From: Candidatus Gastranaerophilales bacterium
GTDB taxonomy: Bacteria > Cyanobacteriota > Vampirovibrionia > Gastranaerophilales > Gastranaerophilaceae
Direction: 5' to 3'
Length of the DNA stretch: 40,588 bases
Assembly: GCA_944325605.1 (NCBI GenBank)
Contig: CALVAX010000015.1
Span: 1-40,588, forward strand
Each line of letters begins with the position of its first letter. Position 1 is the stretch's first letter. Below, one piece after another: positions 18,279 through 25,416 of the stretch. The notes under the pieces are model-generated. The model was not told where the DNA came from. It saw nothing but the letters and a program-made list of their open reading frames with translations, and ran no database searches. The translations under genes and the position numbers were made by a program.

Positions 18279-19118
18279 ATGAAGAAAACTATTGGTATGG
18301 GCGGTTTCACGCTCGCAGAAGTGTTGATTACATTAGGTATTATTGGTGTTGTAGCCGCAATGACAATGCCTACCTTGATTAACTCAACACAGGGCGCACA
18401 GTACAAAACAGCGTTTAAAAAATCATTATCCGTTCTTTCTCAAGCTGTTGTCATGAACATTGCGCTTAACGACTATGACCTGTCACAGGTTGTTGCAGGA
18501 AATAACGAGATAGAGGCTAACGATGGAGGGACTCCAGACGATACAAGTGATGATATTGCAGCTGCAGCTGCTGGTGGACCACAATCTTTATATGACCTAT
18601 TTAGCAATCGTTTAAATGTTGTTAGGACTGCAAACGGTAAAGATTTTACAACAACAGCAGGACAGTCTGATGCGTACACAATTATAAGCTTAGGTAGTCA
18701 AAATGATCAGACTGATAAGACAACATTTAGAACAAATCACTGTAAAACAGGATGCGCAAACAACTACCCATCACTAGAGGGTACAGCACCACTAGCAAAA
18801 TTTGGAGCTAATGCAACTATGTTGTTTATGAATGATGGTATTACTTTTATATTTGATAACACTCAAACTACATGTCAAGAAGCAGATACGGGTATTGGGG
18901 TAAGTGATAGCTATTGCTTTGGATACATTGATGTAAACGGTCAGAAGGCACCAAACAGAATAGTTCAATGTGATGGAGGAACTATTACAGGAACTGCAGG
19001 AGGTGATGATGCAACCTGCACAGTAACAAACCCGACAGACATCTACCCGATTGCATTGTATAACCAGTCTGTTGTTCCGGCATCCGCTGCTGCAAGAGCT
19101 GTATTGTACAACAAATAA
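18279..19118 (+). CDS. Type IV prepilin-like protein
   Basis: The protein has 279 residues from the ATG at 18279 (GGAGG seven bases upstream); the longer open frame from a GTG at 18246 reads through that site. A nine-residue leader ends GG|F10-T-L-A-E14 and runs into a hydrophobic helix (VLITLGIIGVVAAMTMP), the class III signal with the conserved Glu5. The C-terminal two thirds are Asp/Thr/Gly-rich with four central and C-terminal cysteines in CKTGC- and TTCQ-type contexts that could form disulfides, plus a DVNGQKAPN element common in pseudopilins. It sits behind a perfect promoter and is followed by a hairpin terminator. Pilin versus pseudopilin cannot be decided here. Confidence 0.92.
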   Translation: MKKTIGMGGFTLAEVLITLGIIGVVAAMTMPTLINSTQGAQYKTAFKKSLSVLSQAVVMNIALNDYDLSQVVAGNNEIEANDGGTPDDTSDDIAAAAAGGPQSLYDLFSNRLNVVRTANGKDFTTTAGQSDAYTIISLGSQNDQTDKTTFRTNHCKTGCANNYPSLEGTAPLAKFGANATMLFMNDGITFIFDNTQTTCQEADTGIGVSDSYCFGYIDVNGQKAPNRIVQCDGGTITGTAGGDDATCTVTNPTDIYPIALYNQSVVPASAAARAVLYNK

Positions 19119-19977: not shown

Positions 19978-21258
19978 ATGACAAATAAAGTTGTTGTTGG
20001 CGCTCAATGGGGCGACGAAGGTAAAGCCAAAATTACAGATATTCTGGCGCACGATGCAGATTTAATCATTCGCTATCAGGGCGGCTGCAATGCCGGTCAC
20101 ACTGTCGTTGCAGACAACAAAACTTTTAAATTTCACCTTATCCCCTCAGGTATTCTCTACAAGGGCAAAACCTGCTTCTTAGGCGCCGGAACTGTTATTC
20201 TGCCGGAATTCTTTGAACAGGAAGTGAACGAACTTATCGCTCAGGGAATTGACGTTTCCGGACTCAAAATAAGCCCGCTTGCTTCTATTACAATGCCTTA
20301 TCACACCGAAATCGACGGCTACTCCGAAAGCACCGCCGGTAAAGGTAAAATCGGGACTACTAAAAAAGGTATCGGCCCAACTTACACAGACAAAGCCGCA
20401 AGAATAGGGCTTAAAATAGGCGATCTCTATTCAGAAGAAACTTTAAACGAAAAACTTGACATAATCCTTCCTGTCAAAAACAAAACACTTGAAAAAGTCT
20501 ACGGGCTTCAGCCGTATACAAAGGAATGCCTGCTTTCTCTATGTGAAAAATATGCAGAAATTTTCAAACCATACGTGTGCTTTGAGTGGCAGGAACTTCT
20601 CGAAAATTCACGCAAAAAACAAATCCTTTTTGAAGGCGCTCAAGGAGTTATGCTGGATGTGGACTACGGAACTTATCCTTTTGTAACTTCTTCAAACCCG
20701 ATTGGCGGCGGGGCTTCAACAGGAAGCGGATATGGCCCGACTATGATTGATGAAGTTATCGGGGTTGCTAAAGCTTACGTGACCCGCGTGGGCGAAGGGC
20801 CTTTTGTCACTGAACTTACTGACGAAACCGGCGAAAAAATCAGACAAATCGGTCACGAATTCGGGGTTACGACAGGCCGCCCGAGAAGATGCGGATGGTT
20901 TGATGCCGTTATTATGAGATATTCGGTGCTTGTCGGAGGCTTGACGTCCGTTGCACTCACTAAAGCCGATGTCTTCGATACATTCGACGAAATTAAAGTC
21001 TGCACGGCTTACAAAGACTCACGCGACGGCAAAATCTATAAACATTATCCGACTGATGTTTTTATGCACAAATATCTTGAACCGGTTTACGAAACCCACA
21101 AGGGCTGGAAATCTGATATCTCAGGAATTAGAGATTATGAAAAGCTTCCGGAAAATTGCAGAAAATATCTCGAAAGACTTGAAGAACTTCTCGGCGTCCC
21201 GGTTTCTATCGTCAGCGTCGGCCCTGACAGAGAACAGACGATTTTTAAAATGCAATAG
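19978..21258 (+). CDS. purA: Adenylosuccinate synthetase
   Basis: The protein has 426 residues from the ATG at 19978 (AAGGAAGGG upstream); the open frame extends ten codons further without a ribosome-binding site. It makes adenylosuccinate from IMP, aspartate and GTP in AMP synthesis. Signatures: QWGDEGKAK (10-18) with catalytic Asp13, GGCNAGHTV with the catalytic His, KGIGPTYTDKAARIGL, and VTTGRPRRCGW. The P-loop-like motif reads GDEGKAK instead of the usual GDEGKGK. It stands alone between fic and a prepilin gene. Confidence 0.97.
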   Translation: MTNKVVVGAQWGDEGKAKITDILAHDADLIIRYQGGCNAGHTVVADNKTFKFHLIPSGILYKGKTCFLGAGTVILPEFFEQEVNELIAQGIDVSGLKISPLASITMPYHTEIDGYSESTAGKGKIGTTKKGIGPTYTDKAARIGLKIGDLYSEETLNEKLDIILPVKNKTLEKVYGLQPYTKECLLSLCEKYAEIFKPYVCFEWQELLENSRKKQILFEGAQGVMLDVDYGTYPFVTSSNPIGGGASTGSGYGPTMIDEVIGVAKAYVTRVGEGPFVTELTDETGEKIRQIGHEFGVTTGRPRRCGWFDAVIMRYSVLVGGLTSVALTKADVFDTFDEIKVCTAYKDSRDGKIYKHYPTDVFMHKYLEPVYETHKGWKSDISGIRDYEKLPENCRKYLERLEELLGVPVSIVSVGPDREQTIFKMQ

Positions 21259-21276
21259 GACGGGAAGTTTTATTAA

Positions 21277-21350
21277 AGTGAATAGTGATTAAGTTCTTTT
21301 TGGCGCTGCGCACAATTATTAACTCTGCGTTGCAAACTTATTCACTTCAT
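21277..21350 (+). repeat. Intergenic repeat E, copy 1
   Basis: GTGAATA...AAGTTCTTT..GGCGCTGCGC.CAATTATTAACTCT.CGTT followed by CTTATTCAC. It matches 34896-34965 in the same orientation and can fold by pairing its outer GTGAATA..AAG and CTTATTCAC ends. Confidence 0.75.
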
Positions 21351-21368
21351 CAAATAAATCCCATTACA

Positions 21369-21397
21369 TTGAAAAGCTCCAAAATCTATGTTAAAAT
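21369..21397 (+). promoter_or_regulatory. Strong promoter of the phase-variable prepilin gene
   Basis: TTGAAA (21369-21374), 17 bases, TAAAAT (21392-21397), then AAGGA and the ATG at 21438. Confidence 0.7.
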
Positions 21398-21437
21398 AAA
21401 AGAGTAACAAACGTGAATGTGAAAGGAACCAGAAAGC

Positions 21438-21607
21438 ATGAAAAGCCGCACCATGATTGAATTCCACGGAGGGGGGGGGGGCATAACCAAGCTCCTGCAA
21501 GCTATTTAGCCGAAAGTAATGGAATTAAGCGTCATCCTGAGCCGAAGGCGAAGGATCCAAATAAAAAGCAAGTAGATTCTTCAGTCGCTTCGCTCCTTCA
21601 GAATGAC
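21438..21607 (+). other. 5' part of the prepilin gene with an 11-G tract, out of frame
   Basis: An ATG at 21438 with AAGGA upstream opens MKSRTMIEFHGGGGG and, with the present 11 Gs, stops at TAG 21507-21509 after 23 codons. One extra G (or two fewer) would join this start to the frame that runs without a stop through 21482-21607 into the prepilin at 22471, for a 344-residue product. The first repeat (21531-21607) is read through in that frame. Confidence 0.65.
21471..21481 (+). repeat. Homopolymeric 11-G tract
   Basis: Eleven consecutive Gs (preceded by GGA) within the first 15 codons. Tracts of this length slip in replication and are the classic device of phase variation, but they also attract sequencing and assembly errors. 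Confidence 0.85.
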
Positions 21608-21778
21608 GTGCAGGGTGCGTGGGAATTTCTCGGGCTTTGCGCTCAGAATGACAAGGCAGCACATGGAGATTCTTCGGGCTTCCGCCCTCAGAATGACATA
21701 AAAAAGGACGTCATCCTGAGCCAAAGGCGAAGGATCCACTTAAAACGTAATTGGATTCTTCACTTCGTTCAGAATGAC
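21531..21778. repeat. REP-like GTCATCCTGAG...CAGAATGAC repeats, three units
   Basis: 21531-21607 and 21710-21778 are close copies (GTCATCCTGAGCC, AGGCGAAGGATCC, then GATTCTTCA and TTCAGAATGAC). Between them lie partial units ending CTCAGAATGACA (21619-21652 and 21665-21697). All sit inside the 5' part of the prepilin gene, in an open frame. Confidence 0.8.
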
Positions 21779-22471
21779 AGGAGAAAATCCAAACATGCCG
21801 CCTTCACCATGGCAGAAGTCCTCATAACCATCGGAATAATCGGATTAGTTGCGGCTATGACAATGCCTTCTTTAATTAATAATCACAGAAATAAAGCTTT
21901 AGAAGCAGGTCTGAAAAAAAATTATTCAGTTATCTCTCAAGCTCTGGCAATGTATCAGGCACAGAACGGGATTACACTGACCTCGGCCGATATCCGCCCG
22001 AGAGAATTGAAATCTTTAATTATGCCGTATTTTAACGTTTTGATTGACTGCGGGATTGGAACGGAAGAAGAGGCTTGCATTTTTAATGACCTTGAAAATA
22101 GTTCGAATTCTGACAATATTTATAAGACTTATAATAATAATACTTTAGATCTTGGTTATTTTGATGACGGTCAGTTTATATTAACTGACGGCAGTATGAT
22201 ATTTATTGAAAATTCAACGGTTGAAAATGATCCGAGACGTTATATTTCAGTTGATGTAAACGGTTATTTAAAAAGGCCTAATAAGTTAGGATTTGATTTA
22301 TTTATGTTTCAAATAGATAAAAATGGAAAAATTTTACCAATGGGAGCATCCGGAACTGATTACGAAGATGAAAGGTACTATTGTTCTCCAACTTCGGTCA
22401 GTACAATGAACGGGGCGGCATGCACGTATAAGGCATTAACTGATAAGTATTATTTTAAAAATCTGCACTAA
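21608..22471 (+). CDS. Type IV prepilin-like protein, probably phase-off or disrupted
   Basis: The frame from GTG 21608 to 22471 has 287 codons. The true pilin begins at AFTMAEVLITIGIIGLVAAMT (F at 21803): a prepilin helix with Glu5, preceded by Ala at -1. It is followed by a pilin-like body with a DVNGYLKRPN element and four cysteines, as in the pilin at 18279. No start codon with a ribosome-binding site lies near the helix, and the GTG at 21608 has none. The only credible start is the ATG at 21438, one base out of frame because of the G-tract, with about 120 leader residues encoded by REP-like repeats. It is either a phase-variable gene in its off state or a pilin broken by repeat insertion. 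Confidence 0.7.
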   Translation: MQGAWEFLGLCAQNDKAAHGDSSGFRPQNDIKKDVILSQRRRIHLKRNWILHFVQNDRRKSKHAAFTMAEVLITIGIIGLVAAMTMPSLINNHRNKALEAGLKKNYSVISQALAMYQAQNGITLTSADIRPRELKSLIMPYFNVLIDCGIGTEEEACIFNDLENSSNSDNIYKTYNNNTLDLGYFDDGQFILTDGSMIFIENSTVENDPRRYISVDVNGYLKRPNKLGFDLFMFQIDKNGKILPMGASGTDYEDERYYCSPTSVSTMNGAACTYKALTDKYYFKNLH

Positions 22472-22584
22472 GCACAAAAATTATCACATCTGCCAATATA
22501 AAAAATGTTTTTAAAAATTTACAAAAAGGCAATTTTTATTTTTCCCGTGTTTTTATTATCATATAAGGTAGTAAGGAAAAGTAT

Positions 22585-25416
22585 ATGATAAAAATTACCC
22601 CGAATTTTACGGCAGGCAGCGTTCAGGCTGTTAATAACGATATCAGGAAAGACAACCAAAATAACCAAAATATCCCGGCTCCGTCTATTGAACAGAATGC
22701 ACTGCCAAATATTCAACCGGATTTTGCAGTAAAAACACCGATGGTATACTCTAAACTCGGAGATTTTAACATTCCATGCGGGTTAAAAGGCAGCCTGTAT
22801 AAACTTGCAAACGGACAAAGAGTTATACTTATCCCAAAAGACGGCCCGACCGTTGTTAAAACTTATGTCAACACAGGTTCTATGAATGAACCGGACGACT
22901 TGCGCGGAATCAGCCACTACATTGAACACAACCTTTTTAACGGTTCCAACGGGCTTGAATCCGGAGAATTTTTCCAAAAAGTCGACCAAATGGGCGCCTC
23001 GACAAATGCCAGCACCGGTTTTTCCGAAACTAACTATTTTATAAGATCGAATCTTCTCGGCAAAAACGATCTTGAAAATAAAATTAAAATTCATGCTTCC
23101 ATGCTTGAAACACCTAAATTTGCTCAATCCATGCTTGACAAAGAAAAGGGTATTGTTAATTCTGAAATTAATATGATTACAGGCGATCCTGTCAACATCG
23201 GACTTAATAAGGCTCTCAAAAATCTCTACCAGATTAATACAAAATCCGTTGATATGATAGGCGGAACAACTTCTAATATTAACAGCCTTACACGTGATAA
23301 TATTGTGAATTATTTCAACACAAACTACTATCCGGCAAACATGACAACGGTTATTACAGGCGAAATCGAGCCGGAAAAAACAATACAGCTTGTTGCGAAA
23401 TATTTTAATTCAACAAAACGTCCTCCGGCATCCAGACATTTTGAAAATCTCAACCCGATTAATAAGCCGGTTCGTGAAGATATTATCTCTGATAAAGCTA
23501 CAGCAACTTCTGTAATTCTGACTTTTGACGGGCCGAAAAACAACGATACAAAAGCTAAAATTTTAACTCAGGCTCTGGCTCAAATCCTTACAATGTCAAA
23601 AACTTCCAGAATTGACAAAAAACTGCTGGATTACAACAGCAGCGCCATCACAGAAATTGAACGCATAAGTACAAAACCTGATGACGGACGGGCAATTATG
23701 ATTATGGCTGACGGAACAGAAGAAAATTCTGAAAAAATAATAAAAACAATTTATACAGAAATTGCCAAAATAGCTTCTAATCCGCCGGAAGATGATGAAC
23801 TTAACGTTGTAAAAAAACGAATGCTTAAAGATTTTTCAAATCTTCTTGAACAGTCTGCTTACACAAATGCGCTTATCGGCGGAGCTTTTTTGGATAATGA
23901 TTTGAATATTGTGACAGATTTTGAAAAAATAGTTAATTCTATCACTCCGGAAGATATCACTCAAACAGCAAAAAAATATCTTGATCTAAACAAGTGTTCT
24001 ATGGTTGTTGTGCACCCCGCTGCGGCAAGTGAAGAAAGCATTAACAGAAATTATACGGAAACAAAGAAAATACCCTTCACAGGCTCTACAGCACCCAAAC
24101 ACGCAATCGACATGCAGGGTGTAAAAGAATATCGTCTGGACAACAATTTTGCGGTAGTCCTTCATGATACTCAAAACAAAAATGCCTGCTTTGATATTCT
24201 GTATTCAAGCAGCAAATATCCGCAAAACACGAAACCCGCCGCAGATGCGCTTCTGTTTAAAATTCTGAATGCAGGAACAATGGATAAAAATGAGATTGAA
24301 TACCAGCAGGATCTTGATAAAAATTCAATAGATACAGTTTTTGCCTCAGGTCAGACAGATTTGAAAATCAAATCAGACTTTTATGCCGACGATATGGAGC
24401 ATGCCCTTAAATCAGCAAAAGAAGTTCTTACCAATCCAAGGTTCAAAGAAGAAACTCTGAACAGGATGAAACGTGAGCTTACGGATGACATAAAAACCAT
24501 GGATAAAGATGCCTCTGATAAACTTCTCCCGGAATTGTACAAAGGTCTTCCGCAAGGCTATTCCAAAGAGGAAATTCTCAACTCCATTGATTCGGTAACA
24601 CTTGACGATATCAAATCTTTATATAATTACATTCTCAAAAACGGACAGGCAAACATAGTTGTATCTGCACCATTTTCAACAAAACCAGAACTTAAACAGC
24701 TTGTCTTTAACGAAATAGCTGAATTACCGCAGGTTGCGCCAAAAAATTCTAATATAAAAGATATTTTTGAGGAAATTCCCCAAACAAAGGTGCTGACAGA
24801 TGTACATTCAAAATCGCAGGCTCAAATAATTGAAGCTTACAAATTCCCGATGAGCCAGAATATGAAAGACGAAATTACACTTAATCTTTTGAACACAATT
24901 CTCGGCGGAACCCCTTCATCACGACTATTTCAAGATCTGAGGGAAAATCAAAAACTTGCATACTCGGTGCATTCAAATGTGAATTTCATGGATAATATAG
25001 GCACTCTTACTCTGGAAATCGGCACAACAACCGAAAATAAAGAAACCGGAGAAGTAAGTTACAACAACCTCCAAAAGGCAATTGAAGGATTTAACAAACA
25101 TATTCAAAAACTTAAAACAGAAAAAGTTACCGACACTGAATTAAAAAATGCCAAACTTAAACTAAAAGATTCAATTCTTAACGCAAATGAAACCAACAAG
25201 GGTAAAAACGGTTCACTTGAATACGGGTTAATTTCACCTTACGGCATATATCAGGAAAACAAAATTCTTGAAACCATTGATGAAATAACACCTGATGATA
25301 TTTATAATGCAGCAAATTACATATTCAAAGGCAAACCGCTCTATTCAATTCTTGCAACAGAAAATACGCTAAAAGAAAACAAAACCTATCTGGATTCACT
25401 TGCCCAAACGGTTTAA
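22585..25416 (+). CDS. M16-family (pitrilysin/insulysin-type) zinc peptidase
   Basis: The protein has 943 residues in four M16 domains. The inverted zinc motif HYIEH (111-115) and the later EKGIVNSEIN (Glu194 as third ligand) make the N-terminal half catalytic. The second half (from about 505) lacks the motif and keeps the substrate-binding GG.PSSRLFQDLRENQKLAYSV. There is no Sec signal; instead a ~50-residue Asn/Gln/Pro-rich N-terminus begins MIKITPNFTAGS, sharing the F-T-[GA] element of other proteins here. It degrades or trims peptides; the cellular location is unclear. Its stop overlaps the convergent DUF378 gene by four bases. Confidence 0.93.
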   Translation: MIKITPNFTAGSVQAVNNDIRKDNQNNQNIPAPSIEQNALPNIQPDFAVKTPMVYSKLGDFNIPCGLKGSLYKLANGQRVILIPKDGPTVVKTYVNTGSMNEPDDLRGISHYIEHNLFNGSNGLESGEFFQKVDQMGASTNASTGFSETNYFIRSNLLGKNDLENKIKIHASMLETPKFAQSMLDKEKGIVNSEINMITGDPVNIGLNKALKNLYQINTKSVDMIGGTTSNINSLTRDNIVNYFNTNYYPANMTTVITGEIEPEKTIQLVAKYFNSTKRPPASRHFENLNPINKPVREDIISDKATATSVILTFDGPKNNDTKAKILTQALAQILTMSKTSRIDKKLLDYNSSAITEIERISTKPDDGRAIMIMADGTEENSEKIIKTIYTEIAKIASNPPEDDELNVVKKRMLKDFSNLLEQSAYTNALIGGAFLDNDLNIVTDFEKIVNSITPEDITQTAKKYLDLNKCSMVVVHPAAASEESINRNYTETKKIPFTGSTAPKHAIDMQGVKEYRLDNNFAVVLHDTQNKNACFDILYSSSKYPQNTKPAADALLFKILNAGTMDKNEIEYQQDLDKNSIDTVFASGQTDLKIKSDFYADDMEHALKSAKEVLTNPRFKEETLNRMKRELTDDIKTMDKDASDKLLPELYKGLPQGYSKEEILNSIDSVTLDDIKSLYNYILKNGQANIVVSAPFSTKPELKQLVFNEIAELPQVAPKNSNIKDIFEEIPQTKVLTDVHSKSQAQIIEAYKFPMSQNMKDEITLNLLNTILGGTPSSRLFQDLRENQKLAYSVHSNVNFMDNIGTLTLEIGTTTENKETGEVSYNNLQKAIEGFNKHIQKLKTEKVTDTELKNAKLKLKDSILNANETNKGKNGSLEYGLISPYGIYQENKILETIDEITPDDIYNAANYIFKGKPLYSILATENTLKENKTYLDSLAQTV

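Follow-up and report, generated by a model that had tools for sequence, protein, structure and literature searches.

Poly-G tracts at the start of a dispersed prepilin gene family in gut Gastranaerophilales suggest phase variation

Phase variation through poly-G tracts is textbook knowledge in Neisseria and Campylobacter. In Neisseria, pilC1 and pilC2, which encode a pilus tip protein, carry a poly-G tract in the signal-peptide region; the Opa genes are switched by CTCTT repeats placed in the signal-peptide region, and a G4 structure at pilE is needed for gene conversion. The genome of Campylobacter jejuni includes many poly-G tracts. The Opa proteins of N. gonorrhoeae are encoded by about 11 unlinked, phase-variable paralogues (PMC3745409), and phage-receptor switching by the poly-G contingency genes of C. 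jejuni has been modelled (PMC8224891). Palindromic elements of the CGTC-type REP superfamily occur inside reading frames, for instance in Rickettsia (PMC3733652).

The window, that is, the whole stretch of 40,588 nucleotides analysed here, comes from a Candidatus Gastranaerophilales bacterium whose assembly (G000, the source genome) comprises 2.15 Mb in 30 contigs. The Gastranaerophilales are common, almost uncultured, non-photosynthetic gut relatives of the cyanobacteria. No paper linking them with phase variation was found among those searched; a termite-gut paper only noted the pilA, pilB, pilC, pilT and pilD genes of a melainabacterium. From the comparisons given below we consider it probable (about 0.82) that a prepilin gene of this window belongs to an Opa-like multigene family that undergoes slipped-strand phase variation and is mostly OFF by default.

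The window gene lies on the plus strand and its parts, first pointed out in an earlier note on this DNA, are read directly in the sequence. A sigma-70-like promoter at 21369-21397 (TTGAAA at 21369-21374, 17 bases, TAAAAT at 21392-21397), whose region recurs in other copies of the same 5' cassette when the sequences are compared, precedes the ribosome-binding site AAGGAA at 21423-21428 (AAGGAG in most other copies) and the start codon ATG at 21438. As assembled, the leader frame MKSRTMIEFHGGGGGITKLLQAI (21438-21509) is OFF, given that it ends at a TAG (21507-21509) after 23 codons. Codons 12-15 of this frame hold GGA followed by 11 Gs (21471-21481), and a tract of 12 (or 9) Gs would join the leader and the pilin. 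With one G added, a frame of 344 codons runs from the ATG at 21438 to 22471, through the three REP-like repeats that the note had described, and enters the prepilin sequence FTMAEVLIT at 21803. The 321-nt spacer between tract and pilin (21482-21802) is built of CGTC-type REP elements, ends at a predicted cleavage site between A and F, and is free of stops when read in the pilin frame, the two remaining frames having 10 and 5. The pilin body (21803-22471, 222 residues and a stop) shows the FTMAEVLITIGIIG helix, with Glu5, followed by a beta-rich head. It was also correct that no other start with a ribosome-binding site serves the pilin: the sole listed start in its frame, GTG 21608, is without one. 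The tract is more than a chance run, because every other G run of the window is at most 5 long and GGG makes up 13% of the glycine codons of its genes. A role of the tract as a promoter spacer, in transcriptional control, was ruled out, as it lies 33 bases inside the frame. An Rfam search of 21250-22600 gave no match. The window also carries a second prepilin (18279-19118), whose leader is short and ordinary (MKKTIGMGG) and lacks a tract.

The window gene is one member of a dispersed pilin family, neither lone nor broken. In the source genome there are 19 runs of at least 10 Gs and a search recovered 42 prepilin helices; 15 of the 19 runs are followed on their own strand, after 26-707 bases, by a prepilin frame (binomial 2e-29). 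Each of these runs comes after a start codon, ATG or GTG, that has a ribosome-binding site, and a 16th run, on contig 30, has the same leader and lies at the contig end. At the start of these approximately 15 pilin genes the tract is 10-13 Gs long and usually one base out of frame. The remaining prepilins are without a tract, many of them with a short leader (MKKA, MKRA) beside the helix, therefore tract-bearing and tractless prepilins coexist in the genome; the relatives with a normal short start that the earlier note had thought could betray a broken copy are separate, tractless loci. Three other G runs are unrelated to prepilins (L031:1409-1420, L044:1459-1469 and L045:1427-1436): one is antisense in an ORF, one intergenic, and one lies in an ORF with two overlapping open frames. 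Four contig ends of this assembly (the end of C9 and the starts of C13, C29 and C30) lie less than about 600 bases from a cassette copy; it is therefore likely that the assembly was interrupted by the repeats, and there may be more copies than were counted.

The members of the family have a common anatomy, i.e. a ribosome-binding site, an ATG, 7-11 codons, 10-15 Gs, about 36 bases and the sequence FT[LM]AEVLITLG. Its distribution was followed with a pattern of at least 9 Gs, 24-55 bases and codons for FT[LM]AEV, using the reversed pattern as control; the control gave 0 matches in every genome. Of the 14 species of the source genus, 11 carry the pattern. Across the order 41 of 383 genomes have it, and every one of them belongs to a single family of gut bacteria (Gastranaerophilales); none of the 22 genomes from the order's other families had it, and when 194 genomes were sampled across the phylum the matches again came from this family alone. 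A scan of 84,980 named species returned at least 80 matches; all those listed were Gastranaerophilales or Melainabacteria MAGs, or MAGs with uninformative titles, including one misnamed Fusobacterium sp. CAG:439. No match was obtained in the viral contigs searched. These figures are undercounts, because the strict pattern misses members with long spacers. Five genomes (G055, G167, G059, G027 and G036) contain 100-176 runs of at least 10 Gs per 2-Mb genome, and three genomes of the order's other families contain 0-2. In a 400-kb sample from four genomes, prepilin frames begin at about half of such runs. Some of the others are located in glycosyltransferase-like genes and other 5' leaders; the switch arsenal would therefore be wider than the pilins.

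An unbroken G run is present in 140 of 141 leaders that have three or more glycines before the helix, in spite of the 13% share of GGG noted above; the conserved element is the homopolymer, not just glycine. Between tract and helix, an in-frame start with a Shine-Dalgarno-like sequence was found at 1 of 98 loci; therefore, the frame across the tract decides whether the pilin is read. At these 98 loci the tract is mostly 10-13 Gs long and reaches 15, so that all three frames are covered. Length varies across species, and is not the single fixed value that the earlier note had named as an argument against switching. Ten of the 98 assembled loci are ON and 88 are OFF by one base (~90% OFF), counts in which the start was chosen by score and the homopolymer lengths, coming from MAG assemblies, may be off by one. 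The ON fraction of about 10% is below the third expected of free switching (P 1e-7, the loci being related and not independent). Since the usual length is one base from ON in ~90% of the copies, the default state would be OFF, with few of many pilins made per cell. Most tract-bearing pilin genes are assembled out of frame, and annotators would therefore miss them or call them pseudogenes.

Closely related copies differ at the tract. Close homologues have tract lengths 1-3 bases apart; for instance, one leader type (MLKRSHRADLTGGGQPYS and its relatives) occurs with 10 (ON), 11, 11, 12 and 13 Gs. In a nearly identical island of about 2 kb found in two species, the tract region of one locus (L163) has 12 Gs and is in frame, that of the second (L141) has 13 Gs and is not, and the indels are confined to the tract and its edges; few such pairs exist. 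In G055 two copies with 11 Gs encode 254 and 241 residues, and the six 10-G copies examined stop at 15-26. One ON copy (L267) is 91-93% identical to two OFF copies (L268 and L269) over the 150 bases after the tract. The window locus thus has traits of a contingency locus: near its 5' end the coding sequence contains a long mononucleotide tract that would set the frame ON or OFF by its length, and that length varies among homologues more than the flanks do. The on/off pilin switch proposed in the earlier note is accordingly favoured by the comparison of paralogues, in which the homopolymer is kept, its length differs and ON copies occur; switching in living cells may reasonably be supposed from these sequences. 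The genome has two MutS-type repair genes, which neither help nor exclude slippage.

Some of the same data could be read in another way, namely that the tract is kept off-frame and a low level of pilin is made through transcriptional slippage or ribosomal frameshifting, with no switching of the DNA. About 90% of the assembled copies being out of frame by exactly one base would fit this programmed slippage, as would the tight, lineage-specific usual lengths (10 in one genus, 12 in the source genus); in the former nearly all tracts are exactly 10, tighter than expected of a freely drifting repeat. Matched tract pairs of the sister species G055 and G167, compared as a test of switching, have 10 Gs in both and do not discriminate. 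Against programmed slippage, the direction of the shift needed is +1 in that genus and -1 in the source genus, and a ribosomal frameshift has only one; moreover, ON copies with full frames exist and close homologues differ in length, hence we regard programmed slippage as unlikely. A uniform sequencing artefact was discarded, given that the usual length is not the same (10 versus 12) in lineages that come from a single project. Within 100 kb of G055 (L247-L251) the lengths of G/C runs jump from 5 to 10, with none of 6-9 and 13 runs of 10, each of the latter preceded by a C.

Because of the long leader of the window gene, the earlier note had put forward a pilin disrupted by mobile repeats as its main alternative. 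In favour of a pilin broken in this way, with a G tract present by chance, REP elements lie between start and pilin and are widespread in the source genome; in addition, one related locus (L057, G000:C10:38400-41000, minus strand) has decayed. At this locus the tract is interrupted (G9TG2), the spacer carries a frameshift and the body contains a stop, and it looks different from the related copies, which are intact. The 15 long spacers collected from several species (136-707 bases, in part of unrelated sequence) all lack stops when read in the pilin frame, whereas 2-19 occur in the other two, and cassette copies are separated by gaps whose lengths are multiples of 3. The long leaders are not damage, because all 15 are open in the pilin frame only. 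Besides, 86 of the 98 members lack a long insert and still bear the tract, and in a sister species (G006, L243) this cassette has stayed open; a broken pilin is, on these grounds, very improbable. The REP-built leader itself is present as described, but it is not unique to the window gene, given that at least eight related cassette copies exist in the source genome and one in the sister species. Likewise, the leader is abnormally long in the window copy, but most members have ordinary ones: the ON leaders of short-spacer members are 19-42 residues long (median 25), without repeats. Leaders of this size resemble the known type IVb-like prepilin leaders. The pN/pS of the repeat-built leader is 0.5-0.8, with equal or lower values in another frame. 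The repeats bear the CGTC end of the described REP superfamily.

The 5' end of the window gene appears to be portable. Promoter, leader, tract and repeats form a cassette of about 450 bases that stands in front of different pilin bodies, the junctions falling at the cleavage site and in the N-terminal helix; in the window, segment-wise comparison places it at 21350-21862, so that it starts with the promoter and takes in the pilin body as far as about +60. Between roughly -450 and +60 relative to the mature pilin, four copies (L033, L039, L046 and L243) are ~90-100% identical per segment, and past +60 the pilin bodies drop towards background identity. Per 60-base segment, the window cassette is 85-98% identical to other copies in the spacer and 74-75% around the promoter and the tract, and three more spacers (L034, L038 and L041) have their 3' part in common with it. 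The reverse is also seen: upstream, L033 shows no relation to the tractless L051, and from the cleavage site on the two agree (up to 97%). Likewise, a tractless copy and a 13-G copy of G010 have a 93% identical body from -18. This mosaicism is best explained by recombination in the conserved helix codons. It could also be taken to mean that poly-G acts mainly on the DNA, e.g. as a G-quadruplex that drives cassette exchange, the effect on the frame being secondary, for which pilE of Neisseria offers a precedent. Against such a role, the mosaic junctions fall in the N-terminal helix codons and not at the tract, in most loci the tract is 7-11 codons into an open frame with a ribosome-binding site, and recombination alone needs no single pure homopolymer; we give this idea very little credence.

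With respect to the product, F1 and E5 are invariant in 20 sequences, and a cleavage site between G or A and F and a hydrophobic N-terminal helix are present. The GspG and ComGE models gave weak N-terminal matches, below the cut-offs, and the window pilin matched no family in Pfam; the Pfam domain DUF6613 (PF20318) matches the head of one phase-variable pilin (L046:436-1122). The AlphaFold model of the window pilin body (pLDDT 82.6) has a long helix and a beta head. A Foldseek search of the PDB with this model returned nothing significant, and in a second structural comparison the best five rows were all type IV pilins (PilA5, Z 6.1, rmsd 3.1, 100 aligned). Since the Z score is middling, the predicted pilin fold has moderate support. 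The genome encodes a prepilin peptidase (PF01478, one match) and ATPases of the T2SSE/PilB/PilT type (PF00437, four matches over the cut-off), and the ON products are presumably pilus subunits.

In the mechanism that we propose, slipped-strand mispairing at the poly-G tract, 7-11 codons past the start, would change its length in steps of one base. Every third length would bring the leader into frame with the prepilin, which would then be cleaved by the prepilin peptidase and assembled; at the other lengths translation would end after ~10-30 codons. A set-point length one step from ON may keep most pilins silent. Recombination in the N-terminal helix codons would join the switch-bearing 5' cassette to different bodies, and in some copies REP elements would have grown inside the leader with the frame kept. 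As a tentative extension, which we hold with considerably less assurance, a portable, default-OFF poly-G cassette shuffled onto pilin bodies could combine phase and antigenic variation in one system; if so, both the choice of pilin and its on/off state would vary, across a whole family of gut bacteria for which phase variation is not known. Adhesion, or escape from phages or immunity, are plausible functions. With a dispersed, default-OFF repertoire of ~15-20 switchable pilins per genome, the variability of the surface, adhesion and phage escape could be tested directly in the Gastranaerophilales from metagenome reads that already exist, and presumed commensals would have a strategy best known from pathogens.

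Each of the described systems resembles this family in part. As in pilC1 and pilC2, a poly-G tract near the start of a pilus gene would switch the frame; those are one or two genes and do not encode a prepilin, whereas here there are ~15 prepilins per genome. The contingency genes of C. jejuni likewise have many poly-G tracts and surface functions, but they are not prepilins, and here the lengths are 10-15 and prepilins are the main target in the source genome. The palindromic elements of Rickettsia and the CGTC-type REPs are also found in frame in coding sequence (PMC3733652); in contrast, the repeats described here follow the poly-G tract within a leader that would be removed, and they are found again and again in a single gene family. 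Judged by its way of working, the Opa family is the nearest analogue. Opa proteins are outer-membrane barrels switched by a pentamer repeat, whereas here poly-G precedes type IV prepilins and the cassette is found on different bodies; the proteins being prepilins, the likeness is one of working and not of descent. Both are dispersed families of surface-protein paralogues, each member with its own start region, where the frame sets the on/off state in Opa and would set it here.
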